A stretch of DNA of 64,000 bases. Source: Flavobacterium sp. 90. GTDB lineage: Bacteria > Bacteroidota > Bacteroidia > Flavobacteriales > Flavobacteriaceae. The notes below the pieces were generated by a model. The model did not search any database. It was not told where the DNA came from and saw only the letters and a program-made list of their open reading frames with translations. Location of the stretch: positions 5,208,001 through 5,272,000 of the forward strand of contig NZ_SMGE01000001.1 of NCBI RefSeq assembly GCF_004339525.1. Direction: 5' to 3'. Shown one piece after another: positions 18,368 through 42,411 of the stretch (the first letter of the stretch is position 1; every line of letters begins with the position of its first letter). Both the position numbers and the translations under genes were made by a program.

Positions 18368-18428
18368 TTTTTTATAACTATGTACGAAAGTAGTAGTAAA
18401 CTTTTTATTTCAATCTCGAAGTATTTTG
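18368..18428 (+). promoter_or_regulatory. Weak copy of the island regulatory element before the first AraC gene
   Basis: TTTTTTATAAC at 18368 resembles the TTTATTATAAT core found before other island genes. The segment exactly 53 bp later reads GTATTTTG, keeping TTTG of the -7 consensus in place but not the leading TA. It is a diverged member at best. Confidence 0.35.
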
Positions 18429-18494
18429 GTTACTATTTAAGTAAATTTACTCGGAAAGTTAATTATGGCTAAGATGAATCAAGTAGGTAAAAAT

Positions 18495-19472
18495 ATGAAA
18501 CCGGAGATAACCACTTTAAGAAAGTTCAGAGATATGATCGCTTATATGAACTTACCCGTTTTCTCTTATATTGATAACGACGATTTTGCTATTATAAAAA
18601 TTCATGATATGGGACTAAAAATGCCATATATTACACCCACCTTTAGACCGGATTTTTATACTTTAATAATTGTAAGTGAAGGAAAAGGTACCTTTATGGC
18701 AGGTGATCATGTATTTGAACTTGGTGCGCAACATGTCTTTATGAAATATCCTGATAGTTATTTGTCCAGTGGCTGGACAGAATCTCCAATAGGATATAAC
18801 ATTTCTTTCACGGAGGAGTTTTTAACTAAATACTTTCCTGATGGAATTGATGAAATTCCTGCAAAAGACAAAACAAACGCATTTAATTACGGTCTCAGCG
18901 ATGAAGATTATAAACTATTTGATGACATTTGCGCGGAAATGTATAATGAAGCTATTTCTTCTTCAAAGAATAGATATGAAATGATCGCAAATCTTCTTAT
19001 TCATTTTTTGTTATTAGTCCAACAATATCAAAATAAGATTAAATTAGAAATTCAGAATGAAAAAAATGCTCTTATCCTGGCATCATTCTTTAAAAATGTT
19101 GATCAGAATTTCAACATGCTCTTATCGGGAGATAGTTCAACAGTTCTTCGTACTAAAGAACATTCTAAATTGTTAAATGTTAATGAAACTTTTCTCTCTA
19201 AAGTAATCAGTAAAACCTCAGGCAGAACAATCAATCAATGGATAAACGACAGACTCATTGATGAAATCAGCTATTTATTAAAAAATACCCATACACCAAT
19301 TCCTGAAATTGCACAAATATTTGCTTTTACCGATCTTAAATATTTTTACACATTTTTTAAAAAGAATACTAAAACTACTCCCAGTTCAGTAAGAAATGAT
19401 TTTAATGCTTCTGATTCTGATCGCGCTCATGTGTATCGAGGTGAGGTAGTAAAAATAAGGACGAATTGGTAA
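18495..19472 (+). CDS. AraC-family transcriptional regulator, type B
   Basis: An AraC/XylS regulator of 325 residues. The N-terminal 1-180 region is a cupin-like effector domain (PTFRPDFYTLIIVSEGKGTF). The C-terminal part (about 210-310) holds the two helix-turn-helix units, with INQWINDRLIDEISYLLK and IAQIFAFTDLKYFYTFFKK. I chose the ATG at 18495 because the two related proteins (20486-21466 and 39300-40232) begin at the equivalent residue; an in-frame ATG at 18465 would add ten residues. It is convergent with the next AraC gene. Its N-terminal domain is close to the other two type-B proteins, so all three arose by duplication. Confidence 0.88.
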   Translation: MKPEITTLRKFRDMIAYMNLPVFSYIDNDDFAIIKIHDMGLKMPYITPTFRPDFYTLIIVSEGKGTFMAGDHVFELGAQHVFMKYPDSYLSSGWTESPIGYNISFTEEFLTKYFPDGIDEIPAKDKTNAFNYGLSDEDYKLFDDICAEMYNEAISSSKNRYEMIANLLIHFLLLVQQYQNKIKLEIQNEKNALILASFFKNVDQNFNMLLSGDSSTVLRTKEHSKLLNVNETFLSKVISKTSGRTINQWINDRLIDEISYLLKNTHTPIPEIAQIFAFTDLKYFYTFFKKNTKTTPSSVRNDFNASDSDRAHVYRGEVVKIRTNW

Positions 19473-19484
19473 TTCAGAAGCTGT

Positions 19485-20453
19485 CTACAATTGAAGACTT
19501 TTTTTACGGTAATTAATTGGTGATAGACCAGTATGTTTTTTAAAAAAGATACTAAAGTAAGACAAATAAGAGAATCCCAGCATATAAGCAATTTCTTTTA
19601 ATGATAAGCGAGGGTCTTCTATAAGAATTTTTGCTGCACTCAGGGTTTTTTCCGCTATTAGTTGTCCGGCTGTTTTTCCGGTTTTTTCCTTTAAAATACT
19701 GGAGAGATAATTTTCATGAAGTTGTTGCATTTCGGCATAATCTTTTATGTACAATGTTCTTTGAACTTTTCCTTTTAATAATTGGTCGTAATGGTGTTCA
19801 AGATTCTGGAAAAAATCATTCACGATATCCGGATGTTTCGTTTCTGTATTATTAATCACATAACCTTCCCAATATTCCTGCTTTATTTTTAGCAAAAATC
19901 GTGTCAATAAATTTGCGCAGATTTGATTTTTCCAAGGCGAATCATTTAAGAGTTCATCAACAATTAGCAAAAGAATTTTTTTAAGTTCCTGTTGAAATAC
20001 TTCGGAGGTTTTTAATGGTATTTGTCTTTCAAAAAGCAAAAATGGAAAGGTTTTATAAATAGATATTCCGGCATATTTGGAGATAAAATTCTCGGAAAAA
20101 ATTATTCCGTAAGACTCATTCATAACTTCCCATGTTAACTGCTGAAGCTCGCCTGGTTTATTGACAAATAACATTCCAGGTTTGACATTGAATGGCAGTT
20201 TATCTACTATAATTTTTCCGTAAGCATCCAGAACAAAACCTACTGAGAAAAATGTGGTAAAAAAGGGAGGTGTTGAAAAAGGAAGCTGGTCATTAGGATG
20301 AAGTACTTTGGAATTGACAAAGGAGAATTCAGCATCTCCTAAATGTCCATGAGACATATCGACATGATCCAGATCCACGGATGACAAATCCAATCCCATT
20401 ATTTTGGCAGTGTCATAAAAATCTGTGAATTTAATATTTTTACTGTTTTCCAT
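19485..20453 (-). CDS. AraC-family transcriptional regulator, type A
   Basis: A 322-residue AraC regulator with an N-terminal sensing domain and C-terminal double helix-turn-helix (LHENYLSSILKEKTGKTAGQ; IAYMLGFSYLSYFSIFFKKH). It shares long near-identical segments with the protein at 38337-39275, for example YAGISIYKTFPFLLFER and NLLTRFLLKIKQE. It lies 32 bp downstream of a type-B AraC gene and is probably co-transcribed with it. The same A-after-B order recurs at 38337-40232. Confidence 0.9.
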   Translation of the reverse strand: MENSKNIKFTDFYDTAKIMGLDLSSVDLDHVDMSHGHLGDAEFSFVNSKVLHPNDQLPFSTPPFFTTFFSVGFVLDAYGKIIVDKLPFNVKPGMLFVNKPGELQQLTWEVMNESYGIIFSENFISKYAGISIYKTFPFLLFERQIPLKTSEVFQQELKKILLLIVDELLNDSPWKNQICANLLTRFLLKIKQEYWEGYVINNTETKHPDIVNDFFQNLEHHYDQLLKGKVQRTLYIKDYAEMQQLHENYLSSILKEKTGKTAGQLIAEKTLSAAKILIEDPRLSLKEIAYMLGFSYLSYFSIFFKKHTGLSPINYRKKSLQL

Positions 20454-20485
20454 TTTCCTAAGATTTACGGGTACAAGTTTCTGTA

Positions 20486-21466
20486 TTATTTACTAAATGT
20501 CTGATGTTTTGTAAATGGAGGATTATAGACAACATTCTGATTTTTTTCGATGTTGTTAAAGTCTTTCCTCAATGCGCTGGGGGCATTTAAAGTCTGCGAT
20601 TTAAAATAACTGCAAAAATAATTTAGATCGTTAAAAGCAAATAATTCAGCAATCTCTTTCATTGATTTATCGGAATGTTTTAGCAGGTATTTAATCTCTT
20701 CAATTAGCTTCTCATTAATCCATTCATTGATTGTTTTTCCTGTGCAATTGCTTATTACTTTCGAAAGATAATTTTCGTTGATATTCAATAATTTGGAATG
20801 TTCTTTCGTTCGCATTAGTGAAGTGTCCTGACCCTTTATGAGTTGGCTAAAATTATTTTCCATATTTTGACGAAATGCGCTCACAGTAGTGATTTGTTTT
20901 TCGTTTTCCAATTTCAGTTTTGAATTGCCTTTCTGATGTAATTGTATTAAAAACAAAAGATTAAGAATAAGGTTTGCAATAAGTTCGTCTTTATATCTCA
21001 TTGTTGAAATCGCTATGTCGTACATCTCATGGCAAGTTTGTTCAAAATATTCCATCTTTTCAGCAGTCAGATCGCAGGAATATCCAATTTCTCCACCTAA
21101 ATCCAGAACAGTATCAATACTTGCCGGAAAATATTGCAGGAGAAAAGATTTCCGAAAACTCATAAAGCATACATTTTGAATTTTTGTCCAATAGCCGGAT
21201 GAAAATGATTCAGGTCTTGAAATTATGATTTGGTTAGAACTAAGTTCAAATTCTTTATCCCCAATAGCATAAGTACCACATCCGTCTATGATGATGAACA
21301 AATTATAAAAGTCAGGCCGAAAGGTTGGTGACTGGAAAGGTAATTTTATCCCAATTTCATGTAGTTTTATAAAACTAAAATCTTCACTATTATAAGCGGA
21401 AATCGGTAGATTCATAAAAGCCAGACATTCAGTAATTGTACTTAAAGTGGTTAATACTGGTTTCAT
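20486..21466 (-). CDS. AraC-family transcriptional regulator, type B
   Basis: A 326-residue AraC regulator. The effector domain includes PTFRPDFYNLFIIIDGCGTY. The DNA-binding part has KLLNINENYLSKVISNCTGK and IAELFAFNDLNYFCSYFKSQ. It is the first gene of a two-gene minus-strand unit. A copy of the island regulatory element with a -7-like CAATTTTG lies 55-124 bp before its start, which suggests it is controlled by one of the AraC proteins of the region, possibly itself. Confidence 0.9.
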   Translation of the reverse strand: MKPVLTTLSTITECLAFMNLPISAYNSEDFSFIKLHEIGIKLPFQSPTFRPDFYNLFIIIDGCGTYAIGDKEFELSSNQIIISRPESFSSGYWTKIQNVCFMSFRKSFLLQYFPASIDTVLDLGGEIGYSCDLTAEKMEYFEQTCHEMYDIAISTMRYKDELIANLILNLLFLIQLHQKGNSKLKLENEKQITTVSAFRQNMENNFSQLIKGQDTSLMRTKEHSKLLNINENYLSKVISNCTGKTINEWINEKLIEEIKYLLKHSDKSMKEIAELFAFNDLNYFCSYFKSQTLNAPSALRKDFNNIEKNQNVVYNPPFTKHQTFSK

Positions 21467-21520
21467 CTTAAATTACTTATATTTAGTAATGCGGCTTATG
21501 TGTACGTAGATTTGATTTTT

Positions 21521-21590
21521 CAAAATTGCATAAAAATCTAATGATATAAGTTACAAATCCTGACTAAAAATTATAATATTTAAAGATTTT
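21521..21590 (-). promoter_or_regulatory. Island regulatory element and promoter of the AraC pair at 19485-21466
   Basis: On the minus strand AAATCTTTAAATATTATAA begins the element and TATAATTTTTAGTCAGG completes it. A -7-like CAATTTTG at 21521-21528 lies 52 bp after the core start, one base short of the 53 bp found in the other copies. The segment just outside the element (CATAAAGTTAAAATC) matches the 3' end of the AraC gene at 40361, a trace of segment duplication. Confidence 0.65.
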
Positions 21591-21640
21591 AACTTTATGT
21601 ACGTTTTTCTTTACTTAGAAAAATTTAAGGGCTTATTTTT

Positions 21641-21940
21641 TTATGAATTGAAATCATTTAAGGATATAATTTTTTTAACCGAACCTGTTTTAGTAAAGAT
21701 TGATCTTCGAAGTTTTGGTTCAATATTTTTTGTTTTATGTCCTCTTCCTGTCGTGTCTTTGACCAATAGAATCGATCCGGTTTCAAAGCTTCTTTCTTCT
21801 CCAAACGAAGTTTCGATTTCTACACCTCCTCCAATAAAATAATATATTGGCGGTCGGGGGCATTATGAAAATCGTAATCGTAAGAAGGATTAACTTCTCT
21901 AAAAACAATTGATTTTACAGGTTCATCATCAGATAAAAAT
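21641..21940 (-). pseudogene. Broken small cupin-domain gene
   Basis: The minus strand encodes a cupin-like protein in two frames. The first part includes SIVFREVNPSYDYDFHNAPD and RQYII; after a frameshift near 21831-21845 the second part reads GGGVEIETSFGEERSFETG, then SILLVKDTTGRGHKTKNIEP, ending at the TAA at 21641-21643. A further stop interrupts the N-terminal portion upstream. The two parts join into one typical conserved cupin (R-Q-Y-I-I-L then G-G-V-E-I-E). The gene is therefore dead, lying between the AraC pair and the tyrosinase operon. Confidence 0.7.
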
Positions 21941-22221
21941 CAGATATCATTGTTTTTTTTTTAGATAAAAGAGAACTACTATTCATTACTTACTTAAAGG
22001 TAATCTATTATCATAAGTAGGTGATTTTAGATCGAGTTCTTACTTAATTCGTGCTTAACTTCTTTTACAAACTTACGAAAGGTTACAAAGTCTGTCATTA
22101 ACCTAGATTAAGAAAAAAAATAATCTCATACTACTTCAAGGTTTGTTTAATTATCTGTTATTCTGATAGATACAAACAGATTTTGTGGGATAATATTTTA
22201 TTAAATCTACGATTACACCTC

Positions 22222-22291
22222 AAATCTTTAATATTTATAATTTTTGATAACTTTTCTATAGAAACTGCGGTTGTGTTTCGAATTAGTTTTG
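22222..22291 (+). promoter_or_regulatory. Island regulatory element and promoter of the Dps/tyrosinase operon
   Basis: AAATCTTTAATATTTATAA followed by TTTTTGATAA matches the element shared across the region. A perfect -7 box TAGTTTTG (22284-22291) lies exactly 53 bp after the core start (22231). Translation of the first gene begins 82 bp further on. No TTG -33 box is present at the normal spacing, as expected for an activator-dependent promoter. I see nothing in the rest of 21941-22221. Confidence 0.75.
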
Positions 22292-22373
22292 CTCTAACGA
22301 AAACCAAATCTATGTTTTATGATTTTACATCAATTTTAAAATTATAAAACATAGAATTATAAAACATAAGAAA

Positions 22374-22673
22374 ATGACAAATTACGATACACTAACAGAG
22401 GCGATAACTGTAAAACAAGCAGAGGGATATACTTTTGATTTTAATCTTAGTAACTCAACATTAGACTGTAAAAAGTTAAATAGGACATTTGATGCTACTG
22501 AATTCAATGTAGATGCATTTTATCGCTTTGAAGGAGATTCTAATCCGGATGATTCGTCAATACTCTACGCGATAAGTACAGAATATGGCATAAAAGGATT
22601 ATTGGTAGATGCCTACGGAGCTTATAGTGATAATTTGAATGCAGCAATGATTCAAAAACTGAAGATGAGATAA
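22374..22673 (+). CDS. Small conserved protein of unknown function
   Basis: A 99-residue cytosolic protein with no signal peptide or membrane segment. It resembles a family of small Bacteroidota proteins that share DRFFRFEGDSDPDDSSILY-type sequence (here FYRFEGDSNPDDSSILYAIS) and have sometimes been labelled phosphoribosylpyrophosphate synthetase without evidence; I would not transfer that name. It is the first gene behind the regulatory element at 22222-22291. It begins a plus-strand run toward Dps, DoxX and tyrosinase, and may take part in stress responses. Confidence 0.75.
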   Translation: MTNYDTLTEAITVKQAEGYTFDFNLSNSTLDCKKLNRTFDATEFNVDAFYRFEGDSNPDDSSILYAISTEYGIKGLLVDAYGAYSDNLNAAMIQKLKMR

Positions 22674-22728
22674 ATAAAATATCTAAGTACCAATAATAAA
22701 AGTAAAATTGAATTTAAAAAATAAAAAT

Positions 22729-23142
22729 ATGGAAACAACAATAAAAAGATTGCATTCCGAAAATAAAATCAAGCGATATTTTGGAAGTATGGCTTTAAAC
22801 GATAAAACAGAAATAGAATTTTTATCGAATCCTATTGTAACAAACAATACTGTTTTTAGAAAAGTTATTGAAAACTATGACTATAACTTACACATCTCGG
22901 CACAGGGTCAATATGTTATACTACTGGATCGCGAAATTGAGGCTTCATCAGGCATAGAAAATGACTTTTTTTCCGGAGGCACATTTTTAATAGGAGAAAC
23001 AGTTAGAGAAGTGCAGAAAACTAAAAGCATAAAAACTCAGGTCAGCCCTTCGTTTTTGATTTATAAAACTTTAAAATCATACGCCATGCCGTTTTTAAAT
23101 TGGAAGCGTTTTATAATTGACTCAAGCATATTAGATATATAA
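22729..23142 (+). CDS. Hypothetical protein
   Basis: A 137-residue protein I do not recognise. The longer frame begins with a TTG at 22708; the ATG at 22729 follows an A-rich stretch and is the better start. There is no signal peptide. A short glycine-containing stretch near 88-95 (FFSGGTFLIGE) and a basic C-terminal third are the only visible traits. It lies 55 bp after the preceding gene and 33 bp before dps, so it is probably in the same operon. Confidence 0.6.
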   Translation: METTIKRLHSENKIKRYFGSMALNDKTEIEFLSNPIVTNNTVFRKVIENYDYNLHISAQGQYVILLDREIEASSGIENDFFSGGTFLIGETVREVQKTKSIKTQVSPSFLIYKTLKSYAMPFLNWKRFIIDSSILDI

Positions 23143-23175
23143 TATTCTTATTCATAACATTTTAAAAATAAAAAA

Positions 23176-23652
23176 ATGAACGATTTAAATGCCATAGGAT
23201 TAAATACTGTAAAAAGTAAAGAGTTAGCAAATCAATTGAATGATCTGCTTTCTAATTATTCGATATTTTATCAAAATGCGAGAGGATATCATTGGAATAT
23301 TAAAGGTGACGATTTCTTTGTATTGCATCAAAAATTTGAAGACTTATATAATAATCTCTTTTTAAAAATTGATGAAGTTGCGGAAAGAATACTAACATTA
23401 GGATTCAAACCAAACCACAATTTTACCGAATATTTTAAAACAGCATCAATTTTAGAAACAAATGAGGTAATTAATGGGCAGCATTCTGTTACTAAAGTTG
23501 TAGAATCTCTGGGAATACTTTTAGCTAAACAAAGAATAATCCTTGATTTATCTGCAACAATAGATGATACCGGGACTAATAGTTTAATGAGCGATTACAT
23601 TCGGGAACAGGAAAAAATGGTGTGGATGTATTCCGCATATATAAAAAGTTAG
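23176..23652 (+). CDS. dps: Dps-family ferritin-like DNA-protecting protein
   Basis: A 158-residue four-helix Dps. It stores iron and protects DNA by consuming hydrogen peroxide in the ferroxidase reaction. The intersubunit site is visible in YHWNIKGDDFF and FEDLYNNLFLKIDEVAERI, the classic His/Asp/Glu pattern. The length and helix pattern are normal. Its position inside the operon of a copper oxidase (tyrosinase) suggests protection against oxidants made by, or inducing, the cluster. Confidence 0.92.
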   Translation: MNDLNAIGLNTVKSKELANQLNDLLSNYSIFYQNARGYHWNIKGDDFFVLHQKFEDLYNNLFLKIDEVAERILTLGFKPNHNFTEYFKTASILETNEVINGQHSVTKVVESLGILLAKQRIILDLSATIDDTGTNSLMSDYIREQEKMVWMYSAYIKS

Positions 23653-23679
23653 GAAACAGTTTGAAGATCAGGCATGAAT

Positions 23680-23711
23680 AAATACTAATTAATATAAATA
23701 CTAATTAATAT
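23680..23711. repeat. 16-bp tandem duplication
   Basis: AAATACTAATTAATAT occurs twice without a gap between dps and the DoxX gene. It is probably replication slippage in AT-rich DNA; it may alter spacing of the translation initiation region. Confidence 0.7.
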
Positions 23712-23725
23712 AAATAAAAAATATT

Positions 23726-24169
23726 ATGAAAAATAAATTATTTGAAACAAGCGAATCCTATGCACCTTTAATTTTAAGACTTATTCTGGGTTTTGTTGTA
23801 TTGATGCACGGTATGCAAAAATTATTTGGCTTGTTTGGTGGTCTTGGTTTTTCTAAAACGATGTTATTTTTTACTGAATCAGTGGGATTACCCTGGATAA
23901 TGGGCTTTTTAATAATCACACTGGAAACTGCTGGCGCGATTGCACTTATTATTGGATTGGGAACAAGACTCATTGCCTTTTCCTATATAATGCTTCCCTT
24001 AGGGATGATATTTACTACACATCTTAAAAACGGATTTTTCATGAATTGGTTTGGAACATTAAAAGGAGAAGGTTACGAATACTTTATTCTTTGGATAGGA
24101 ATGGCTCTTGCCTTATTTATATTGGGTGGAGGCAAATACGCAATAGATAAAATTTTTATTGAAAAATAG
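23726..24169 (+). CDS. DoxX-family membrane protein
   Basis: A 147-residue protein with four predicted membrane helices (for example LILRLILGFVVLMHGMQKLF and LITLETAGAIALIIGLG). It belongs to the DoxX family, whose members include Bacillus CatD, linked to catechol and quinone stress, and mycobacterial DoxX, which works with superoxide dismutase. It ends 5 bp before the tyrosinase gene and is clearly co-transcribed with it. A role in handling quinones or redox stress at the membrane is plausible. Confidence 0.9.
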   Translation: MKNKLFETSESYAPLILRLILGFVVLMHGMQKLFGLFGGLGFSKTMLFFTESVGLPWIMGFLIITLETAGAIALIIGLGTRLIAFSYIMLPLGMIFTTHLKNGFFMNWFGTLKGEGYEYFILWIGMALALFILGGGKYAIDKIFIEK

Positions 24170-24174
24170 TAGAT

Positions 24175-25596
24175 ATGGAAAATATTGATCACAATAATAG
24201 AAGATTATTCTTGAAAAAAGTAGGAATGGCTTCCTTTGGTTTTGCAGGCTTACCGTTGCTGTCTTCATCGCTGATTGGCTGTAAAGATGACAAAACAAAT
24301 CCGGACAATGGCAGCTTTGAAAAGAAAGCATATTCAAATATCGTGGTAAGAAAAAATATTGCCGATATCGCTGTTGATGATGCAGAAATAAAGTTGTTTA
24401 AAGATGCGGTAGGAATCTTAAAAAAACGTTCGCAAATATCACCTTTGGATCCAATGGGCTGGCAGGCAAATGCCTTGTTACATACTGCTTTTTGTGCTAC
24501 AAGCATGTATTCTAATCAGGTACATTACAATTGGTATGTATGGCCATGGCATAGATTATACCTGTGGTCATTAGAGCAGAAACTTCAAAAAGCAGTATCT
24601 GAACCCAAATTGGCATTGCATTACTGGGATTGGACAAAAAGTAATTTTATACCAGAACATTACTGGGGAGATGAGAGTAATCCATTATTCAATGCTTCAA
24701 GGTTTGTAGGGCCAAATGATAAAATACCAAATGACTTCATAAATGTAGGTGCGGGCTTTAGAGCAAAAGACTATAAAACTTTTGGAGGGTATCCCGCTAT
24801 AAAAAAATATGGTGATGCACAGTTGGATGGTTTGGCAGAACAGTCTTTTCATAACAATATCCATAATTGGATTGGAGGCCAAATGGCAACTTTTGTAGAG
24901 TCTGGTTTTGAGCCCATTTTTTACGGTCATCACGGAAATTGTGATCGCATTTGGGATGCCTGGCGCACTTACAGTCCGGAGAATAAATTACCGGATAGTG
25001 AAGAATGGTTAGAAAAAAAATTATATGCAACAGACGGAAATGGACGTCCGGTAGATTTTAAAATAAAAGAGTTATTAAATACAGAAGATTTAGGGTATCG
25101 TTTTGCTGATTTAGACCTTAATCCTAATTTTTGTAATCCATATATTGAAGGAGATAAACCAAAGAGAGATGAGTCGAAAAAGGATTGCATTGCAGCCTTA
25201 AATTTAAAAACTTCAGATACAAATGCTATAATTAAGGATTTCGCAGACAAGGAGAGATCTCACGTTATACTGCACTTTGAAAGAGCTCAGCTTCCGTATC
25301 AGCCTTATTGCGCAAGAGTATTTTTTGAGTATACGATAGACGGAAAGAAGCAAAGTAAATACACCGGTACTTTTACTATTTTACCAATTTTGGATATAGA
25401 TTCAGTACTGCTGCAAAACGGAGTATTTCTTCAAATTGAAATTGAAAAGGAAATTGCTCAGGCCATAGATCAGAAAATAAAGATTGACGTGATTTTTCAA
25501 CCAGTGCCATTACCAAATAGAAATATTCCGGATGAAATTTTAAAGTTAGAAAATATTTCAATTTATAAGGATTATGAAAATAGAAGTAACCATTAG
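24175..25596 (+). CDS. Tat-exported tyrosinase-family type-3 copper oxidase
   Basis: A 473-residue enzyme expected to oxidise phenols to quinones with a binuclear copper site. The Tat motif NNRRLFLKK precedes a lipobox-like LIGC (Cys36), so it is probably a folded, exported lipoprotein. CuA ligands appear as H103 (LLHTAFCA), H118 and H126 (WPWHRLYLW). CuB ligands appear as H226 and H230 (FHNNIHNWIGG) and H252 (FYGHHGNCDRIW). The C-terminal 300-470 part is an additional domain that could shield the active site. The stop overlaps the start of the SCO copper-chaperone gene by 23 bp. Confidence 0.9.
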   Translation: MENIDHNNRRLFLKKVGMASFGFAGLPLLSSSLIGCKDDKTNPDNGSFEKKAYSNIVVRKNIADIAVDDAEIKLFKDAVGILKKRSQISPLDPMGWQANALLHTAFCATSMYSNQVHYNWYVWPWHRLYLWSLEQKLQKAVSEPKLALHYWDWTKSNFIPEHYWGDESNPLFNASRFVGPNDKIPNDFINVGAGFRAKDYKTFGGYPAIKKYGDAQLDGLAEQSFHNNIHNWIGGQMATFVESGFEPIFYGHHGNCDRIWDAWRTYSPENKLPDSEEWLEKKLYATDGNGRPVDFKIKELLNTEDLGYRFADLDLNPNFCNPYIEGDKPKRDESKKDCIAALNLKTSDTNAIIKDFADKERSHVILHFERAQLPYQPYCARVFFEYTIDGKKQSKYTGTFTILPILDIDSVLLQNGVFLQIEIEKEIAQAIDQKIKIDVIFQPVPLPNRNIPDEILKLENISIYKDYENRSNH

Positions 25597-26194
25597 AGTT
25601 TTACTCTTTGCATTGATTTTTGCAGGATGTACAAAGACTGATAAACTTCCCATTTTAGGTGAAGTATCAATTGACCCATTAACTGGAAAAAATAAATATT
25701 ATCAAGCACCGGAATTTTTATTAAAAAATCAATTTAATCAGGAAATAACGCACCATGATTTTGAAAATAAAATACAGATTGTTGATTTCTTTTTTACGAG
25801 TTGCCCTACGATTTGCCCTAAAATGACAAAACATTTAAAATTAGTAGAAAAGGCTTTTGAGAAAATAGATAAAGTTGCGATTGTTTCATACAGTATAGAT
25901 TATAAGAATGATAGTCCTGAAACGTTAAAACAATATTCAAAAAACTATAAAATAAATAATAATAAATGGACATTCTTAACTGGAGAAAGTGATGCCGTTT
26001 TTGAGCTTTCTAAAGATTATAAAGTACGGGCATTTGATGACGGTAATGTGAATCAAAGAAACATAATTCATGATGGCACATTTGTATTAGTTGATGGTAA
26101 AAGGAGAATTAGAGGTTATTACGATGGTTTAAGTGTAAAAGATACAAAACGACTGATTCTGGATATTAATAAGCTTATAAAAGAGGTAGAATAA
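25574..26194 (+). CDS. SCO1/SenC-family copper chaperone lipoprotein
   Basis: A 206-residue thioredoxin-fold protein. The lipobox FAGC places the lipidated Cys at residue 19. The copper/redox motif CPTICPK has C77 and C81, and a later conserved His lies in NIIHDGTFVLVD. SCO proteins normally deliver copper to cytochrome oxidase. Here the gene overlaps the tyrosinase gene by 23 bp, so translation is probably coupled and the likely client is the tyrosinase. Confidence 0.92.
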   Translation: MKIEVTIRVLLFALIFAGCTKTDKLPILGEVSIDPLTGKNKYYQAPEFLLKNQFNQEITHHDFENKIQIVDFFFTSCPTICPKMTKHLKLVEKAFEKIDKVAIVSYSIDYKNDSPETLKQYSKNYKINNNKWTFLTGESDAVFELSKDYKVRAFDDGNVNQRNIIHDGTFVLVDGKRRIRGYYDGLSVKDTKRLILDINKLIKEVE

Positions 26195-26211
26195 ATATAA
26201 TTTTTAAACAG

Positions 26212-28492: not shown

Positions 28493-28599
28493 GTGTACTA
28501 TTTTAATCTACTGTTTTTCAATATGATTACGATATCCAATCTTAGATTTAGGTTTAAAACAAAATAAGCTTTACCAATATAAAGTGACAAAACTTTTCA

Positions 28600-28668
28600 A
28601 ATCTTAGTTTATTATAATTTTTAGTGAATTATTCACAGAAAAGCACGCTTTCATTAGGTGTAATTTTG
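28600..28668 (+). promoter_or_regulatory. Island regulatory element and promoter before the hydrolase at 28833
   Basis: AATCTTAGTTTATTATAATT then TTTAGTGAATTATTCACAGA. The -7 box TAATTTTG (28661-28668) lies exactly 53 bp after the core start at 28608. A 69-bp match to the element before the RidA gene (41490-41559) extends through the -7 box and a shared TTCAACAAGTAAA just after it. The 5' leader would be about 160 nt. Confidence 0.75.
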
Positions 28669-34011: not shown

Positions 34012-34083
34012 AAATATCTTTATTTATTATAATTTTTGGTAAGAATATAACAGAAATGCTATTGAATTCAAAGCCTAAGTTTG
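34012..34083 (+). promoter_or_regulatory. Island regulatory element and promoter before the NTF2-like gene
   Basis: AAATATCTTTATTTATTATA leads into ATTTTTGGTAAGAATATAAC. The -7 box TAAGTTTG (34076-34083) lies exactly 53 bp after the core start at 34023. It is nearly identical to the element at 42341-42411. Translation starts 30 bp after the -7 box. Confidence 0.75.
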
Positions 34084-34112
34084 TGGTATATAAATACTTA
34101 AAAATATAAATC

Positions 34113-34526
34113 ATGGTAAAGAGATACCCAATTCCGCCCTTTACATTGGAGACGGCAATTGAGAAAATTCAATTGGCAGAAGATTCCTGGAACAGTAAAG
34201 ATCCCTACAGAGTTTCGCAGGGATATACAGCTGACAGTGAATGGAGAAACCGTCATCTATTTATAAACGGCACCGAAGAAATTGTAACATTCTTAACAGG
34301 AAAATGGTCAAAAGAGCTTGACTATAAGCTTAAAAAAGAATATTGGGCACATACCGATAACCGAATAGCTGTTCGATTTGAATATGAATATCATAATGAA
34401 GAAGGGCAGTGGTTCAGGGCGTATGGAAATGAAAATTGGGAATTTAATGAAGATGGATTAATGCAAAGAAGGTTCGCTTGTATCAACGATCTGCCCATAA
34501 AAGAAAGTGACAGAAAATTTATTTAA
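34113..34526 (+). CDS. NTF2-like fold protein, DUF1348/SnoaL type
   Basis: A 137-residue protein of the DUF1348 nuclear-transport-factor-2-like family. The signature is [40 protein letters not shown] and [10 protein letters not shown]. The fold is a small cone that binds hydrophobic molecules; some members are enzymes, but no catalytic residues can be assigned here. It is the first gene behind the 34012 promoter, 52 bp before an Asp-nucleophile hydrolase. Confidence 0.85.
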
Positions 34527-34578
34527 TCAATTAAAATAGAGTTTAAAAAGTAAAAATTTAATTTAAAAACCCAGTATT

Positions 34579-35445
34579 ATGAAAACAAGTTACCACACAA
34601 GAAAAATTAATGGAGTAGAAATTTTTTACAGAGAAGCAGGTGATAAAAACAAACCAACGATAGTTTTGCTTCATGGATATCCAACATCATCTCATATGTT
34701 TCGAAATTTAATAAATGATCTATCAGATGATTTTCATTTAATCGCTCCAGATTATCCAGGATATGGCAGAAGTGAGCAGCCTCCAATTGCAGAGTTTGAT
34801 TATACATTTGAAAACATGTCGAATATTGTTAAAACTTTATTGGATGAATTGGATATAAAGAAATTCAGTCTTTATTTGATGGATTATGGAGCACCGATAG
34901 GTTTTAGAATTGCCAGTAGAAATCCGGATCAAATAGATACACTTATTATCCAGAATGGCTGTGCTTATGAGGAAGGGCTTGAAACTTTCTGGGATCCGTT
35001 TAAAGTATATTGGAAAGATATAAATAACCAGGAGGCTATAAACACATTAAGTACGTTCCACGCTCCTGATGGATTAAAATGGCAGTATACTCACGCTGTG
35101 CCAGATGTTTCTGTAATTTCACCAGACAATTGGGAGATTGATTTGAGACATTTAGAACGTCCGGAAAATGGAGATATTCAATTGGCGATGTTCTATGATT
35201 ATCAAACCAATGTGGTATTGTATCCTGAATGGCAGGAATATTTTAGAAAGTACCAGCCAGAAACCATCGTTGTTTATGGAAAAGACGATTATATTTTTCC
35301 AGGCGTAGGAGCAGAAGCTTTCAAAAAAGACCTGGAAAATTTAGAGTTCCATTTATTCAGCACGGGACATTTTGCGCTTGAAAGTTTTGGTGTTGAAATG
35401 GGCGGACTTATAAAAGATTTTCTTTTGAGAAAAACAGGAAAATAA
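34579..35445 (+). CDS. Alpha/beta hydrolase with Asp nucleophile
   Basis: A 288-residue cytosolic hydrolase of the haloalkane-dehalogenase/epoxide-hydrolase group. The oxyanion motif is HGYPTSSHMFRNL, the nucleophile D102 lies in LYLMDYGAPIG, and GHFALE holds the catalytic His. It has no signal peptide, unlike the otherwise similar protein at 31487. It is the last gene of a two-gene unit and is convergent with the TlpA-like gene. Confidence 0.9.
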   Translation: MKTSYHTRKINGVEIFYREAGDKNKPTIVLLHGYPTSSHMFRNLINDLSDDFHLIAPDYPGYGRSEQPPIAEFDYTFENMSNIVKTLLDELDIKKFSLYLMDYGAPIGFRIASRNPDQIDTLIIQNGCAYEEGLETFWDPFKVYWKDINNQEAINTLSTFHAPDGLKWQYTHAVPDVSVISPDNWEIDLRHLERPENGDIQLAMFYDYQTNVVLYPEWQEYFRKYQPETIVVYGKDDYIFPGVGAEAFKKDLENLEFHLFSTGHFALESFGVEMGGLIKDFLLRKTGK

Positions 35446-35454
35446 TTAAGTGAT

Positions 35455-35497
35455 AAAAAAAATGAAGGAGTATTTTTAACTACTCCTTCATTTTTTA
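35455..35497. terminator. Bidirectional terminator between convergent genes
   Basis: AATGAAGGAGTA (35461-35472) and TACTCCTTCATT (35481-35492) pair around 8 nt, with A- and T-runs on the two sides. Confidence 0.85.
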
Positions 35498-35526
35498 TAA
35501 TATCCATTTTAGGGTAAGTGAAATTT

Positions 35527-36600: not shown

Positions 36601-36700
36601 TTGTTTTTGAATTTTATGAAACGTTGAAATAAGAATGGTATTGATTTAAACTGTGTTTTTGACCTATAATTGTAGTCAAATGTGAATGATAATGATAATT

Positions 36701-37576
36701 TTACATAGTCATTGGTACTTCCATCAGAAGTATTTCAGAAGCATCCAACTGAGAAATTACTTCAAGAGAAGCTAGGTCCCAAATTCCCATTCCATCCTTT
36801 TCGTTAAGTAAAGTACCATTTACCAAAAAACTTCCTTTTATAATAAATGCATAGATACCATTACCTTTCTTTTTGATCTGGTATGTACTTGTAAATTTGT
36901 TATCGAAAATTGCCAGGTGAAACCAGGCATCCTGATAGATCCATACACCCTCATCTGTAGCATCAGGAGATAAAATTTGTTGAAACTTATTATGGCGGTC
37001 TTGTGGCTTTAAAGTAATCTGGTCGTATCTCGGAATTACACTTTTTCTATTAGGATAAAGCCATATTTGAAGAAATTTAACTGGTTTGTCCTGGTTGTTG
37101 TTAAATTCACTGTGGTAAATTCCGGTTCCTGCACTCATAACCTGAATATCCGCTTTTTTGATGATAGCCACATTATTCATACTATCCTTATGTTCAAGAT
37201 CACCTTCCAGAGGAATAGATATGATTTCCATATTATCATGAGGATGAGTGCCAAATCCTTTTGATGGGTTTACAACATCATCATTGAGTACTCTCAGGAC
37301 GCCAAAGTGCATTCTGTCCGGATTGTAATAAGAAGCAAAGCTAAAAGTCTGATGCGTATCAAGCCATCCATGATTAGAATGCCCTCTTGATTCGGCCTTG
37401 TGTAAGACGCTATTTTCTGTTACTGGAGTGTCTAGATTGGGCAGGTGATTAAAACCTACAGGGTCGAGTGGTTTTATTTCGTCAATATCATTTTTCATGA
37501 TATTTGCAACTGCTGCTGAGGCAACAAACATTCCTGTTCCTAAAAGTCCTTTTTTGATAAAATCTTTCCTGTCCAT
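36701..37576 (-). CDS. Pirin-family protein with export signal
   Basis: A 291-residue bicupin of the pirin/quercetinase-like family. Metal ligands are visible in FGTHPHDNMEIIS and GTGIYHSEFN. Most pirins are cytosolic; this one begins DRKDFIKKGLLGTGMFVASA, a twin-arginine-like signal with RK in place of RR. Some pirins open flavonol rings as dioxygenases, which fits the aromatic theme of the region, but this activity is not shown. The Crp/Fnr regulator gene lies 80 bp upstream on the same strand. Confidence 0.88.
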   Translation of the reverse strand: MDRKDFIKKGLLGTGMFVASAAVANIMKNDIDEIKPLDPVGFNHLPNLDTPVTENSVLHKAESRGHSNHGWLDTHQTFSFASYYNPDRMHFGVLRVLNDDVVNPSKGFGTHPHDNMEIISIPLEGDLEHKDSMNNVAIIKKADIQVMSAGTGIYHSEFNNNQDKPVKFLQIWLYPNRKSVIPRYDQITLKPQDRHNKFQQILSPDATDEGVWIYQDAWFHLAIFDNKFTSTYQIKKKGNGIYAFIIKGSFLVNGTLLNEKDGMGIWDLASLEVISQLDASEILLMEVPMTM

Positions 37577-37656
37577 TGTTTTTGAGTGTTTGGGTTCACC
37601 GCAAATTTCTATTATAAATGAAACCTGCGCATTGAACTAGGACAAGATTTATGTAA

Positions 37657-38238
37657 TTAGGATTTAAGTTTTCTGGTTCTAATTTTTGATAAAAATTCTG
37701 GCGAAATACCCAAATAAGAAGCAATATAATGTTGTGGCACTCGCAATGGTATAGTTGGATATACCTGCAGAAATTCATCATATTTTTGTTCTGCCGTGCA
37801 AGTGATATTGTGAAGAAGACGATTTTGAGTAACGGCTAAATGACGCTGAACCAAAATTCTGAAAGCTCTCTCAAACCTTGGCGCGCGCTCAAAAAGCTGC
37901 TCTTTGGTTTCTGGGGTAAAGATCAAAAGTTCAGAGTTCTCAATAGTTTCTATAAAAACATGGCTGGCATCTTTTTCGTAAATGCTAAATGAAATATCGC
38001 TGATCCATGAATTTTCGACTGCAAATTGCAAGATTACTTCGAATCCGTTTTCATCTATATAATATTTTCGGATACATCCACGAACCACAAATGCCTCAAA
38101 ACTGCATTTTTCACCTTTTTGAAGCATAATGGTTTTCTTTTTTATTTCTTTGAAATACAATAAAGAATCAAATATATCAAGCTCCTCCTGTGTGAAGTTC
38201 ACATATCTTGAAATGGCGGTATTAATTTGGGTAAACAT
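37657..38238 (-). CDS. Crp/Fnr-family transcriptional regulator
   Basis: A 193-residue regulator with an N-terminal cyclic-nucleotide-binding-like barrel (about 20-120) and a C-terminal helix-turn-helix (HYIASYLGISPEFLSKIRTR). No cysteine cluster for an iron-sulfur centre is present. It reads into the pirin gene and probably controls it. Bacteroidota proteins of this kind usually do not bind cAMP in the classical way. Confidence 0.9.
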   Translation of the reverse strand: MFTQINTAISRYVNFTQEELDIFDSLLYFKEIKKKTIMLQKGEKCSFEAFVVRGCIRKYYIDENGFEVILQFAVENSWISDISFSIYEKDASHVFIETIENSELLIFTPETKEQLFERAPRFERAFRILVQRHLAVTQNRLLHNITCTAEQKYDEFLQVYPTIPLRVPQHYIASYLGISPEFLSKIRTRKLKS

Positions 38239-38336
38239 TATTCCAATTTATTTTTAATTAAAATTAAAATAAAGTTTTTTAAGTTTTATTCTAATAAAGA
38301 TGTTGAGTTCGTTTATGGCGGACATTTCTACGACAA

Positions 38337-39275
38337 TTAATTTGATAAACTTTTTTTGCGGTAATCTAAAGGAGTAACACCGGTATGTTTTTTAAAGAAA
38401 ATACTAAAATAGGAAGTGTAGCTGAATCCTAACATATATCCAATTTCTTTCATAGTAAATTGAGAATCCTGAATTAAAATCTTTGCTACAAAAAGCGTTT
38501 TTTCGGAGATTAACTGACCAGCCGTTTTTCCAGTCTTCTCTTTAATAATAGTTGACAGATAGTTTTCGTGAAGTTGCTGCATCTCGGCATAATCCTTAAT
38601 ATGCAGAATTTGTTTAACTTTACCTTTTAGCAGTTGATCATAATGATACTCCAAATTTTGTGTAAAATCGTTCAAAATATCTGAATTTCGAGATTCTACA
38701 TTATGCACACTGTATCCTGCCCAGAATTCCTGTTTTATTTTAAGTAAAATTCTGGTAAGCAAATTGGCACATAATTTCTTTTTAAGAGGTGAATCTTTTT
38801 TTAATTCCTGATAAATTAATAAAATAATAGTTTTTAGCTCTTGCTGAAATTCTGCGGAGGTATGTAGCGGCAAATGTCTTTCGAACAACAAAAAAGGAAA
38901 CGTTTTATAAATAGAAATTCCGGCATATTTTTTAATAAAATCTTCTGAAAATAACAATCCATAGGTTTCGGTCACTTCTTCCCATTTTAATTCCTGTAGA
39001 TCTCCTGGTTTGTTCATAAACAACATATTGGGCTTAATATCTACAGTTAAATCTTCGTATCTCATCGAGCCATAAGAATCAATAACAATTCCAATTACAA
39101 AAAAAGTGGAACGATGCAATGTATATGTCCATGGAAGCCTTTCTTTTGGATGTAATATTTTTGAAATTATTAATGAGAAATCTTCGTCACCCACGTGTCC
39201 CTCAGAGAAATTGCTCCCCATGACTTTTACGGTATCGTAAAAATCGGGCATTTCTTTTTTATCTATTTTACTCAT
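38337..39275 (-). CDS. AraC-family transcriptional regulator, type A
   Basis: A 312-residue AraC regulator, the closest relative in the window of the protein at 19485. Shared blocks include YAGISIYKTFPFLLFER, LHENYLS, and the helix-turn-helix IGYMLGFSYTSYFSIFFKKH. It lies 24 bp downstream of a type-B AraC gene, copying the A-after-B arrangement of the left cluster. N-terminal residues differ more than the rest, consistent with changed effector specificity. Confidence 0.9.
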   Translation of the reverse strand: MSKIDKKEMPDFYDTVKVMGSNFSEGHVGDEDFSLIISKILHPKERLPWTYTLHRSTFFVIGIVIDSYGSMRYEDLTVDIKPNMLFMNKPGDLQELKWEEVTETYGLLFSEDFIKKYAGISIYKTFPFLLFERHLPLHTSAEFQQELKTIILLIYQELKKDSPLKKKLCANLLTRILLKIKQEFWAGYSVHNVESRNSDILNDFTQNLEYHYDQLLKGKVKQILHIKDYAEMQQLHENYLSTIIKEKTGKTAGQLISEKTLFVAKILIQDSQFTMKEIGYMLGFSYTSYFSIFFKKHTGVTPLDYRKKSLSN

Positions 39276-39299
39276 CTTTTTTTACTTTAAGAAGAAACA

Positions 39300-40232
39300 T
39301 TAATCAGGAAATGAGTTTTGAAATTGTTTCCTGTAAACTCCTGGAGCACATAGTGTTTGGGTCTTGAAAAAGCTGTAAAAATAATTCAAATCACTAAAAC
39401 CAAAAAGAAAAGCGATATCTTTCATCGGTTTTTCGGAATATTTTAGCAGATACTTAATTTCATCTATTAGTTTTTCGTTTATCCATTCATTTACTGTTTT
39501 TTTAGTCCCGTTCGTTATGATTTTGCATAAATAATTTTCATCTAGATTTTGTATTTGTGCATGTTCTTTAATACGCATCAGGACGGAACAGTTACCATTA
39601 ATCAATTCGTTAAAATTATTTTCCATATTTTGGCGAAAATCAATTATGATCTTATTGTTTTTTTCATTATTTTTTTTTGATATTATTTCATTTTCCTGTT
39701 CTAATTGTACTAAAAATAAAAGATTAAGTGCCATGTTTGCCATAAGCTCTTCTTTATAACATGCATCTGAAGTGGCTGCTTCATATATTTCAAGGCAAGT
39801 TTGTTCAAAATAGTTCATTGTATCTTTAGGCAGACAGCAGCAATAACCATTTTTAGCATCAAAGTCCAATATATTATTAATGCCGCCTGGAAAGTATTTT
39901 AAAATGAAAGATTTTTGGAATGTTATATTGTAAACTTTTTCCATATCTGTCCAATCAATTTTAAAGAAGGAATCGGGACAGGTTACTACCACATGATTGG
40001 GACGTAATTCAAACTTATTATCGCCTACAGTAAAACTGCCATTTGCCTTAATGACAATAGTAAAACTATAATAATCAGATCTAAAAGTTGGCGAATGGAA
40101 AGGAAATTTCAGATCCCATTCATGAACTTTTACGATCGAAAACTCATCATTGTCTATATAATCATGAAAAGTAAGATTTAAAAAATCAATCTGGTCTTTG
40201 TATTTGCTAATAGTGGTTAGTTGTGGTATCAT
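39300..40232 (-). CDS. AraC-family transcriptional regulator, type B
   Basis: A 310-residue AraC regulator related to those at 18495 and 20486 (for example PTFRSDYYSFTIVIKANGSF and IAFLFGFSDLNYFYSFFKTQ). It has an N-terminal cupin-like domain and two C-terminal helix-turn-helix units. Its promoter carries the island element with a perfect -7 box at the 53-bp spacing. The gene for a type-A AraC follows after 24 bp. Confidence 0.9.
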   Translation of the reverse strand: MIPQLTTISKYKDQIDFLNLTFHDYIDNDEFSIVKVHEWDLKFPFHSPTFRSDYYSFTIVIKANGSFTVGDNKFELRPNHVVVTCPDSFFKIDWTDMEKVYNITFQKSFILKYFPGGINNILDFDAKNGYCCCLPKDTMNYFEQTCLEIYEAATSDACYKEELMANMALNLLFLVQLEQENEIISKKNNEKNNKIIIDFRQNMENNFNELINGNCSVLMRIKEHAQIQNLDENYLCKIITNGTKKTVNEWINEKLIDEIKYLLKYSEKPMKDIAFLFGFSDLNYFYSFFKTQTLCAPGVYRKQFQNSFPD

Positions 40233-40291
40233 GGTTTGGTAAAATAAAGTTGGACAATTTTTTGAATGAGGAATTGGGAACTTTTATTTTT

Positions 40292-40361
40292 CAAAGATAT
40301 GTGATAAGAAAATTTGAATGATACTCTTATTTTGGCAATTACTTATAAAATTTAAAGATTT
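40292..40361 (-). promoter_or_regulatory. Island regulatory element and promoter of the AraC pair at 38337-40232
   Basis: On the minus strand AAATCTTTAAATTTTATAAG begins the element and the -7 box TATCTTTG (40292-40299) lies exactly 53 bp after the core start at 40352. The middle part is less conserved (GTAATTGCC where others have TTTTTAGTA). The upstream end touches the stop codon of the AraC gene at 40361. Confidence 0.65.
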
Positions 40362-41281
40362 TAACTTTTATGTAAACTTTTCCTGTAGAAAGCAGGTGTG
40401 AGTGTAGTTTGGCTTTTAAAGTAGAAGTTAAAATAACGACTGTTGGTAAATTGAAATAGGTCGGCAATTTCGGTTATTGGCATAGATGTTTCGGTTAATA
40501 ACAATTTAACTTCAAGTAGAAGTCTGCTATTTATCCATGTAGTTGGGGTTCTTCCTGTTTTAGTTTTTATTACTCTGGAAAAGTAATCTTCATTTAAAAA
40601 TTGTAAGTCTGCAAAATCTTTGGTTTTTAATTGTTTTGGTTTTTTTCCTTGTACTATTTCATTAAAGTAATTTCCCAAATCTTTATAAAAGGTATTTACT
40701 GTTGAATTACTATTATCAGTAAAAGGATGCAATGGATTCTGAAAAAGTTCTTTAATCTTAATAAGCAGAAATTCAACCATATTACCAATTAGTAACATTT
40801 TTTGCTCAGGATTACGTTGAATTTCTCTTTTAATTTGGTTTGTATTATACGTTATTGCGTCGTAGTTTTCTGGATCTGCTTTTGTATAAATTAATGACTC
40901 AGAAAGCAAAAAAGGAAATTCTTTATATATATCCGAAAAGCAATGGCTGGCAAGAAATTTTTCAGTAAAAGAGATAAAATGGGCTTCAGTTAAATGATCA
41001 AATTTATAATTACGATAATGTCCTGGACAAGTTAGAAAAATACCGGATGCTTCTAATTTTATTATCTTATCATTAAAAAGGTGTGTTGCACTACCTTTAT
41101 TAATTATCAAAATGGTAAAGAAATTGGCTTTATAATTATCAGGAACAGTAAGTAATTTATTTTTGTTCCATTTGTCAATTTCCTGAATCATAAAATCATT
41201 GCTTATTAATTCCGTTGAGGGCAGTCCAAACCAATCGCTAATCTCTTTTGGCGTTTTAAATATGGGGATTTCCTTTTTCAT
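40361..41281 (-). CDS. AraC-family transcriptional regulator, type C
   Basis: A 306-residue AraC regulator with the usual sensing and double helix-turn-helix parts (LQFLNEDYFSRVIKTKTGR; IADLFQFTNSRYFNFYFKSQ). It is more distant from the other five proteins. It is divergent from the RidA-like gene (41732). A short sequence like its 3' end also lies beside the left AraC cluster (21590-21600), so a type-C copy may once have existed there. Confidence 0.9.
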   Translation of the reverse strand: MKKEIPIFKTPKEISDWFGLPSTELISNDFMIQEIDKWNKNKLLTVPDNYKANFFTILIINKGSATHLFNDKIIKLEASGIFLTCPGHYRNYKFDHLTEAHFISFTEKFLASHCFSDIYKEFPFLLSESLIYTKADPENYDAITYNTNQIKREIQRNPEQKMLLIGNMVEFLLIKIKELFQNPLHPFTDNSNSTVNTFYKDLGNYFNEIVQGKKPKQLKTKDFADLQFLNEDYFSRVIKTKTGRTPTTWINSRLLLEVKLLLTETSMPITEIADLFQFTNSRYFNFYFKSQTTLTPAFYRKSLHKS

Positions 41282-41489
41282 TTAGTCTTTTTATATTAAA
41301 CTTCTTAAAAGCAGATAAAAATAGCACTGTATCTATTTTAACAAGTTGATTTTTTATGCAAGATGTGTTTATCACAGCTTGTTAATTGTTATTGCTTTTT
41401 TATATAAAATATTACATTTCAGTTTCTTACACAGTGCATATTTACTAAAGAAAAATAAGGATTACTAATCTAAAGCGAAAAAAATAATT

Positions 41490-41559
41490 AAATCTTAGTT
41501 TATTATAATCATTAGTAAATTATTCACAGAGAATGAAATTTTCATTCGGTATAATTTTG
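41490..41559 (+). promoter_or_regulatory. Island regulatory element and promoter before the RidA-like gene
   Basis: AAATCTTAGTTTATTATAAT then CATTAGTAAATTATTCACAG. The -7 box TAATTTTG (41552-41559) lies exactly 53 bp after the core start at 41499. It closely matches the copy at 28600-28668, and both have TTCAACAAGTAAA just after the -7 box. The leader would be about 170 nt. I see nothing else in 41282-41489. Confidence 0.75.
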
Positions 41560-41731
41560 CTTCAACAAGTAAACAAGCTCATTTTTAATCTACTGTTATA
41601 TGCTGATTCATAAGAAAAAAATCTGAGGTCTAAAATAGCCACGTATTAGTAATATTCTTTATTTGTGTTAATTGAAAATAAAAAAGGGAAAGCTGAAACC
41701 CTATTAAAGTAGGCGCAATAAAATTATCGTT

Positions 41732-42250
41732 ATGAAAACCGTATTAAAAAAATTAAGATTAATGTCAATAGGTATTACATTGGCATTTACAATTCAAAGT
41801 TGTGGTCAAAAGGAAAAGGAATTCGAAGATCAAACTAAAGATAAAGCAGTTATTGTAAATGAGAGACCGGAATATTTTTTACTTCGTCCGGAAGTTGAAA
41901 AGGCTTATGGTTATTCGCATGCAGTAAAAATAGGCAATACAATTAAAATTTCTGGAGCTGTGAGTTTTGACGATAAAGGGAAGCCTACAGCAAAAGGTGA
42001 TTTGGAGCAACAAATGAAAAATAGCTATGCCGATTTGGATAAAATATTAAAGCACTACGGTTGCACATTTGATGATGTAGTGATGGAAAATATCTTCACA
42101 ACCAACATGCCATTATTTCTTGAAGTCTCAGGATATAGAAAAGAAATCTACAAGAAAAATTTCCCAACTGGGTCTTGGCTTGGAGTAAAAGAACTGGCAT
42201 TTCCCGAATTAATGATAGAAATAGAATTGGAAGTTTATAAGGCACAATAA
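41732..42250 (+). CDS. RidA/YjgF-family lipoprotein
   Basis: A 172-residue RidA-type protein with an N-terminal lipobox-like TIQSC (Cys24). Classical RidA enzymes deaminate reactive enamines/imines in the cytosol. Here the motif that normally reads FPARS, with the catalytic Arg, is FPTGS, so that Arg is missing. The trimer core (ALDQQ-type, here GDLEQQMKNSYADLDKILKHYG) and the C-terminal IEIELEVYK are kept. It is therefore exported and probably does a different reaction. It lies behind the 41490 promoter. Confidence 0.85.
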   Translation: MKTVLKKLRLMSIGITLAFTIQSCGQKEKEFEDQTKDKAVIVNERPEYFLLRPEVEKAYGYSHAVKIGNTIKISGAVSFDDKGKPTAKGDLEQQMKNSYADLDKILKHYGCTFDDVVMENIFTTNMPLFLEVSGYRKEIYKKNFPTGSWLGVKELAFPELMIEIELEVYKAQ

Positions 42251-42340
42251 TTTTCAGAGGTTATTTTGAATTAGAAGAATACCGTTTAGTTATTTCCTGC
42301 TTTACTTATTTTTCATTTCCAGAGTTAAGAACTGTAATCC

Positions 42341-42411
42341 AATATCTTTATTTTTTATAATTTTTAGTAAGTATATAACAGAAATGCAATTGGAACCAAT
42401 GCCTAATTTTT
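42341..42411 (+). promoter_or_regulatory. Island regulatory element and promoter before the hydrolase at 42507
   Basis: AATATCTTTATTTTTTATAA then TTTTTAGTAAGTATATAACA. The -7-like box TAATTTTT (42404-42411) lies exactly 53 bp after the core start at 42351. The copy at 34012-34083 matches it through this box. Confidence 0.7.

Follow-up and report, generated by a model that had tools for sequence, protein, structure and literature searches.

A phased promoter element in a Flavobacterium gene island, predicted to be the site of an AraC-type activator

Introduction

Why do seven promoters in one part of the Flavobacterium sp. 90 genome carry the same upstream element at a nearly constant distance from their -7 boxes, and which protein is likely to bind it? 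The stretch analyzed here (the window; 64,000 nucleotides, 33% G+C) comprises positions 5208001-5272000 of a single-contig genome of 6.65 Mb and was compared with relatives from the genus Flavobacterium. An original prediction, made from the letters of the window, had described the element and assigned its promoters to one regulon under a local AraC-type activator that touches RNA polymerase. Class II activation geometry is known from the AraC/XylS family, as for AraC of Escherichia coli at araBAD; to our knowledge, little is known about the action of activators with Bacteroidota RNA polymerase. Our analysis suggests that the regulon is most likely AraC-activated and that the element is probably the site of an island-specific, autoregulated AraC-type activator, encoded by a tandem pair of AraC genes (types A and B) and acting in class II geometry at sigma-ABfr promoters. 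Searches of open-licence full texts brought up no publication on the motif or the regulon.

A shared element at seven promoters

The element was present at all seven promoters for which it had been claimed (offset 0, the A of ATCTT, at 22224+, 28601+, 34016+, 41492+, 42344+, 21587- and 40359-). Its phase is near constant, with the -7 box starting at offset 60 in six sites and at offset 59 in one, and the distance from the box to the start codon ranges from 37 to 180 bp. The spacing had originally been given as 53 bp (52 bp in the seventh promoter) from core to box; the constancy stands, but the figure does not, as the distance from the start of the TATAA core to the start of the box is 48 bp, or 47 bp in the seventh. 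Likewise, the TAnnTTTG box is exact in five promoters, while those at 42404 (TAATTTTT) and 21528 (CAATTTTG) are each one letter off, and on the strength of these boxes all seven are classed as putative sigma-ABfr promoters. The core described as common to all is degenerate at 40299- (TATAAGTAATTGC). In agreement with the earlier description, TTG at the -33 spacing is absent in all seven; from offset 34 to the box, TTGs occur only at 46-47, in three promoters. Two weak copies proposed at 18368 and 31416 could not be upheld: they fall outside the best 14 matches of each of three matrices and are not kept upstream of the corresponding genes in the relatives looked at.

Along the promoter, 28661/41552 and 34076/42404 are near-duplicates and 40299/21528 are partly alike, so that the seven promoters represent about four sequence families rather than seven independent observations. 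Two near-duplicate pairs in DNA of such low G+C content are what would be expected if the element were a chance AT-rich likeness multiplied by recent promoter duplication and without function; yet the element is common to the four dissimilar families, and its distribution in the genome also speaks against chance.

Confinement to the island

Enrichment over shuffled sequence was evident: at up to three mismatches, AATCTTWRWWWWTTATAATTTTTRRT matched the window seven times (six of the originally predicted sites and one stray at 61328), compared with a mean of 0.06 in 100 shuffles. When the search was extended to the rest of the 6.65-Mb genome, all five zero-mismatch matches to ATCTTNNNNNNTTATAATTTTTRRT lay inside the island, within one 21-kb stretch, and the sole one-mismatch match lay outside it. 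At up to three mismatches the pattern is uninformative genome-wide, since 177 matches were obtained with it and 158 with the reversed control.

A matrix was then built out of sample from 16 sites of relatives (effective number 9.0; loci L040-L043, L045, L046, L050, L052, L136 and L143), and the seven window sites took ranks 1-7. For the element alone, the five target sites scored 36.5-48.6, 21587- scored 28.7 and 40359- scored 11.4 (best of 30 shuffles, 21.1); with the box included, the targets scored 39.2-72.1, 40359- 17.0 and 21587- 10.7 (best of 30 shuffles, 11.5). The five targets thus stand far above chance, 40359- only with the box and 21587- only without it. The element furthermore survives in relatives in which the sequence following it is scrambled. 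With these results a chance origin is scarcely credible; given the island confinement of exact matches and the recovery of the sites by the out-of-species matrix, we take it as refuted, provided that the other species diverged long enough ago for the comparison to be informative. Judged from these comparisons, we regard the element as genuine, phased and conserved.

Phase and conservation in relatives

Contigs were scanned with a profile built on three AraC proteins of type A, which gave 15 loci (14 Flavobacterium, one Arenibacter) fetched by protein rather than by element. Elements precede the same targets in relatives despite rearranged gene order. No element was seen in loci L048 and L051, and the Arenibacter locus (L049) has a three-mismatch core upstream of its A gene without a phased TAnnTTTG. 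The 15 loci were pooled with the window and with further stretches, some of them fetched by an element-and-box match, which introduces a bias, and 65 unique sites with up to three mismatches were picked on offsets 0-24. TAnnTTTG was found at offset 60 in 33 of the 65 and at no other offset within 25-112; among these 33 promoters, a TTG starts at offset 40 in one and at offset 41 in three. CAnnTTTG was found at offset 60 in six of the 65 sites and at 59 in three, and all nine lie upstream of AraC genes (eight A-B operons and a lone B-type gene in L040). Sites whose core has no more than one mismatch number 33: TAnnTTTG stands at 60 in 26 and CAnnTTTG at 59 or 60 in five, and two, an orphan in L043 and window 42404 (with TAATTTTT at 60), have neither. 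A phased box is present in six of the 24 three-mismatch sites. Beyond the seven window promoters, relatives contribute 37 unique phased sites. The comparison with homologous islands that had been suggested at the outset shows a phase maintained from species to species against a background of variable flanks and leader lengths.

In other genera, eight of 397 family genomes besides the source matched the A profile, at no more than 185.5 bits compared with 590-604 bits for the three A proteins of the window, and the best core match in each of these eight loci (one per locus) had no phased TAnnTTTG. In L172, a locus with a B-like gene, a core with two mismatches lies 1.4 kb beyond that gene and is followed by AACCTTTG at offset 59.

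Extent of the element and promoter geometry

The conserved block spans offsets -2 to 40 (about 43 letters) and is thus longer than originally described. In a weighted profile of the 33 promoters with TAnnTTTG at 60 (effective number 9.4; one of them an A-operon promoter, in L043), it consists of AAATCTT, an AT-rich stretch, TTATAATTTTTAGT, and ACAGAAA at 34-40, where columns -2, -1 and 34-40 had played no part in site choice. AG is found at 36-37 in 32 of the 33 promoters and ACAG in 22, the exception without AG being the A-operon promoter of L043. The TAnnTTTG -7 box of Flavobacterium sigma-ABfr promoters (PMC6847099, PMC9723704, PMC2483708) is placed at -12 to -5 in PMC6847099 and PMC9723704, so that the block covers about -74 to -32. 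ACAGAAA then falls at the position expected of the -33 box, and the promoters described here share the -7 box of this class but differ in that an upstream element, at one fixed spacing, occupies the -33 box position.

ACAGA at 34 is absent from all 15 AraC-operon promoters listed (14 Flavobacterium, including the two of the window, and one Arenibacter; the L044 row is out of register). Eleven of these 15 carry AAAAGT at exactly -22 relative to ATCTT (window 40359-, L040-L043, L045, L049, L050, L052 and L138), a set that includes the Arenibacter promoter; the three A1-type promoters have no AAAAGT at -22.

An inverted repeat was not found in the element, the scan peaking at offset 29 with a negative score. 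By eye, a GTGAnnnnnTCAC dyad centred at offset 29 can be seen in the second half of the element in one promoter subclass (28601 and relatives; L136 19663), and ATAAT and AYAGA, 21 bp apart, look alike.

Candidate regulators

All six AraC-type proteins of the region scored above the cut-off for HTH_18 (Pfam), confirming the six AraC genes counted earlier. One of the local genes had been named as the likely activator in general terms; our comparisons narrow this to the A-B pairs 20486-19485 and 39300-38337 and disfavor 18465 (A3) and 40361 (C). A1/A2 and B1/B2 arose by duplication as pairs, and the element precedes both A-B operons of the window as well as A-B operons of relatives.

Element-plus-box matches with up to two mismatches occurred in 16 of 398 Flavobacterium genomes. 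Nine of these are island-type (G000, G008, G049, G102, G108, G201, G245, G311 and G390) with 26 matches, and the other seven have one two-mismatch match each, compared with 11 reversed-control matches counted by eye. When five candidates per genome were scored in the searches for A and for B, A-type AraC was found at 1e-40 in nine genomes, eight of them island-type, and both A-type and B-type AraC are encoded by eight of the nine genomes with island-type sites. B-type proteins of at least 64% identity occur in seven genomes, all island-type, that of G108 being 42% identical, and 12 further genomes have B-like proteins (36-41%) without an element-plus-box match. The A and B proteins of G108 are approximately 42-45% identical to those of the window, and this genome has phased elements upstream of DUF1348, of a hydrolase, and of a small gene (about 130 residues) followed by old yellow enzyme (L136 19663 to L137 1459), as well as a looser element (box TAAATTCG) upstream of a zinc dehydrogenase.

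Type A3 (18465) was rejected as the binder: its own promoter is without the element, and genome G184 has A3-type only, lacking both a B match at 1e-40 and any element-plus-box match. A3 promoters share a TTTAGTAAATTTA-like stretch of their own (window 18345-18440; L041, L045, L141), and a like stretch precedes type C. Type C, present at 60% identity or more in five of nine genomes searched and without a match in G108 or G245, was rejected as a required binder because no match at 1e-30 was obtained in G108 despite its phased elements.

It is nevertheless possible, though unlikely, that the element is bound by another regulator, whether AraC type C, Crp-family protein 37657 or the product of a gene that lies outside the island. 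Type C stands divergent to an element in all nine aligned sequences, and a further conserved block lies between the two. In L043, L046, L047 and L052, the locus contains no RidA gene and the sequence past ACAGA has diverged and lacks a box, yet the element outlives them, intact in L043 and three core letters off in the other three; at 1e-15, RidA also remained without a match when G008, G049 and G102 were searched genome-wide. Whatever keeps the element in place there thus appears not to be RidA, and may be AraC type C. As for Crp, the GTGAnnnnnTCAC dyad recalls Crp-type sites, but the other promoter classes lack it, and a search confined to loci L041, L042, L045, L050 and L052, all of which have elements, gave no Crp match. 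Another regulator is further disfavored by the phased elements of G108, a genome without a type C match at 1e-30, and by the element carried by the A-B operons themselves.

Proposed mechanism

According to the reading that we prefer, one or both proteins of the A-B pair (20486-19485, duplicate 39300-38337) would bind the element at about -74 to -32. Its downstream end sits at the weak -33 box position, so that the bound protein could touch sigma-ABfr RNA polymerase, and a promoter with a -7 box but without a -33 box would be activated in class II geometry. Contact with the polymerase would explain why the spacing between element and box cannot drift, and the presence of the same element before both A-B operons would make the switch autoregulated. 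The promoters show the fixed phase (60/59), a block ending at about -32 and no TTG at the -33 spacing in the window; together with the weak boxes at AraC operons, these features are those expected of an activator that touches the polymerase in class II geometry. The original proposal of one regulon under a polymerase-touching local AraC activator accordingly remains the best-supported reading, owing to the held phase, the block ending at -33 and the island confinement, with its 53-bp figure and weak copies set aside. We infer activation rather than repression, the binding by A, B or both, and the transcription starts from the sequence comparisons.

It appears improbable that the element is an operator at which the same regulon is repressed, or that it serves activation at some promoters and repression at others. 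In favor of this, a protein bound at the end of the element, which reaches into the -33 region, could block the polymerase, and no box accompanies the element beside type C. However, repression does not need an exact phase, and 60 bp is held between promoters and across species. The seven promoters moreover have no -33 box at normal spacing, and nine AraC promoters have weak CAnnTTTG boxes, which suggests that they require assistance.

The missing -33 box is weak evidence by itself, since in F. johnsoniae as a rule the -33 motif is far less conspicuous (PMC6847099); in F. columnare, this box is described as not essential, yet needed for full activity (PMC2483708). Several observations weigh against activation by the A-B pair. 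No 21-bp direct repeat, the pattern reported for AraC-type sites (PMC3870299), was found, a shift of 21 scoring no higher than other shifts or than permuted columns. Taken by itself, the 3' half (22-40) does not stand out, with only one of seven sites (28601, 19.8) exceeding the best of 30 shuffles (18.2). The element persists beside type C where RidA and the box are gone. G245 has one element but no A, B or C match, G390 (81% complete, fragmented) combines B with an A match of A3 type only, and the sole A matches of G201 are two pieces in different frames. In addition, regulator and regulon are not separable, because the island travels together. The two overlapping pieces of G201 form its A2 AraC gene (L148 3528-4461), and the elements of that genome look intact. 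The orphan element of G245 (L135 9504-9842) stands beside a truncated first target gene (63 of 99 residues matched) with the contig end 2.2 kb further on, and may represent either a decayed island or an assembly edge.

Either a 21-bp repeat exists but has degenerated too far, or the site is bound by two dissimilar proteins, and the A-B pair makes the latter option worth testing. The element might be a non-repeating, two-part site for an A-B heteromer, with A on one half and B on the other. We consider this rather unlikely, although the pairing of the A and B genes, their duplication as a pair and the ACAGAAA end at target but not at A-B promoters suggest it. If so, one half of the site would be common to target promoters and self-promoters, and the second half would differ between the two classes.

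Gene content and significance of the candidate regulon

With operon extents estimated from the spacing of genes, we infer that the element defines a candidate regulon of roughly 30 kb that takes up most of the island (Table 1). Pfam families among the targets include amidohydrolase, alpha/beta hydrolases, isochorismatase-type, DoxX (33276), DUF1348, RidA-like and glyoxalase-like proteins, and a pirin is encoded in the A2-B2 stretch. The Dps-, tyrosinase- and DoxX-like (23726) labels come from NCBIfam matches that score below curated cut-offs, and we take 25574 to be SCO1-like. A motif and a candidate regulon are thereby assigned to tyrosinase-like, Dps-like, DoxX and many hydrolase genes, for which no control had been known to us or came up in our searches. 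From the kinds of these genes, together with the old yellow enzyme and the dehydrogenase of G108, we guess that the regulon serves to handle aromatic or electrophilic compounds; that such a compound is also the signal is a tentative guess from the target genes. The MhqR quinone-stress regulon, with a MarR-type repressor, has DoxX, glyoxalase-like and hydrolase targets, and our candidate regulon resembles it in these gene kinds only, including the two G108 genes near elements. Unlike there, the regulators linked here are AraC-type; the scan for MarR domains covered only part of the remaining window proteins.

As in AraC/XylS class II systems, AraC-type regulators with two helix-turn-helix motifs lie beside their targets, a site of approximately 40 bp ends at -33/-35, and the regulators' own operon has a site. 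The differences are the missing 21-bp repeat, two unlike AraC proteins per operon, a Bacteroidota TAnnTTTG promoter and a system known here from sequence. Predicted AraC-type rhamnose regulons of Bacteroides have 21-bp direct-repeat motifs for sugar use (PMC3870299). They too are Bacteroidota regulons deduced from a conserved upstream motif adjoining an AraC-type gene, but the apparently non-repeating element described here precedes hydrolase, tyrosinase, DoxX and RidA-like genes. With seven promoters in a single genome, 37 phased sites in relatives and candidate regulators in the same island, the system provides a compact natural test set that makes it testable whether an activator replaces the -33 contact.

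Table 1. Positions of the element and of AraC-type genes in the window, and of the element beside AraC type C in relatives. Elements are given from offset -2 to 40.
Feature	Position	Strand	Details
Element upstream of 22374-28395 genes	22222..22264	+	box TAGTTTTG 22284..22291, offset 60
Element upstream of 28833-33704 genes	28599..28641	+	box TAATTTTG 28661..28668, offset 60
Element upstream of 34113-35445 (DUF1348, hydrolase)	34014..34056	+	box TAAGTTTG 34076..34083, offset 60
Element upstream of RidA-like 41732, divergent from AraC type C	41490..41532	+	box TAATTTTG 41552..41559, offset 60
Element upstream of 42507-47971 genes	42342..42384	+	imperfect box TAATTTTT 42404..42411, offset 60
Element upstream of A1-B1 AraC operon, without ACAGA end	21547..21589	-	weak box CAATTTTG 21521..21528, offset 59
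Element upstream of A2-B2 AraC operon, degenerate core, without ACAGA end	40319..40361	-	box TATCTTTG 40292..40299, offset 60
AraC type A1, candidate activator	20486..21466	-	HTH_18
AraC type B1, candidate partner	19485..20453	-	HTH_18
AraC type A2, duplicate of A1	39300..40232	-	HTH_18
AraC type B2, duplicate of B1	38337..39275	-	HTH_18
AraC type A3, unlikely binder, without element upstream	18465..19472	+	HTH_18
AraC type C	40361..41281	-	HTH_18; without match in G108, a genome with elements
Element beside type C in relatives without RidA	L043 8623-8707; L046, L047, L052 near 8700		

A comparison of the AraC proteins with solved structures gave a match confined to the DNA-binding domain. Redox cysteines were considered in the A, A3 and B proteins, and we claim no sensor pattern from the conserved ones: the cysteine at position 145 of A1 is kept in 14 of 15 A and in all nine A3 proteins, and that at position 179 of B1 in 14 of 16 B proteins.

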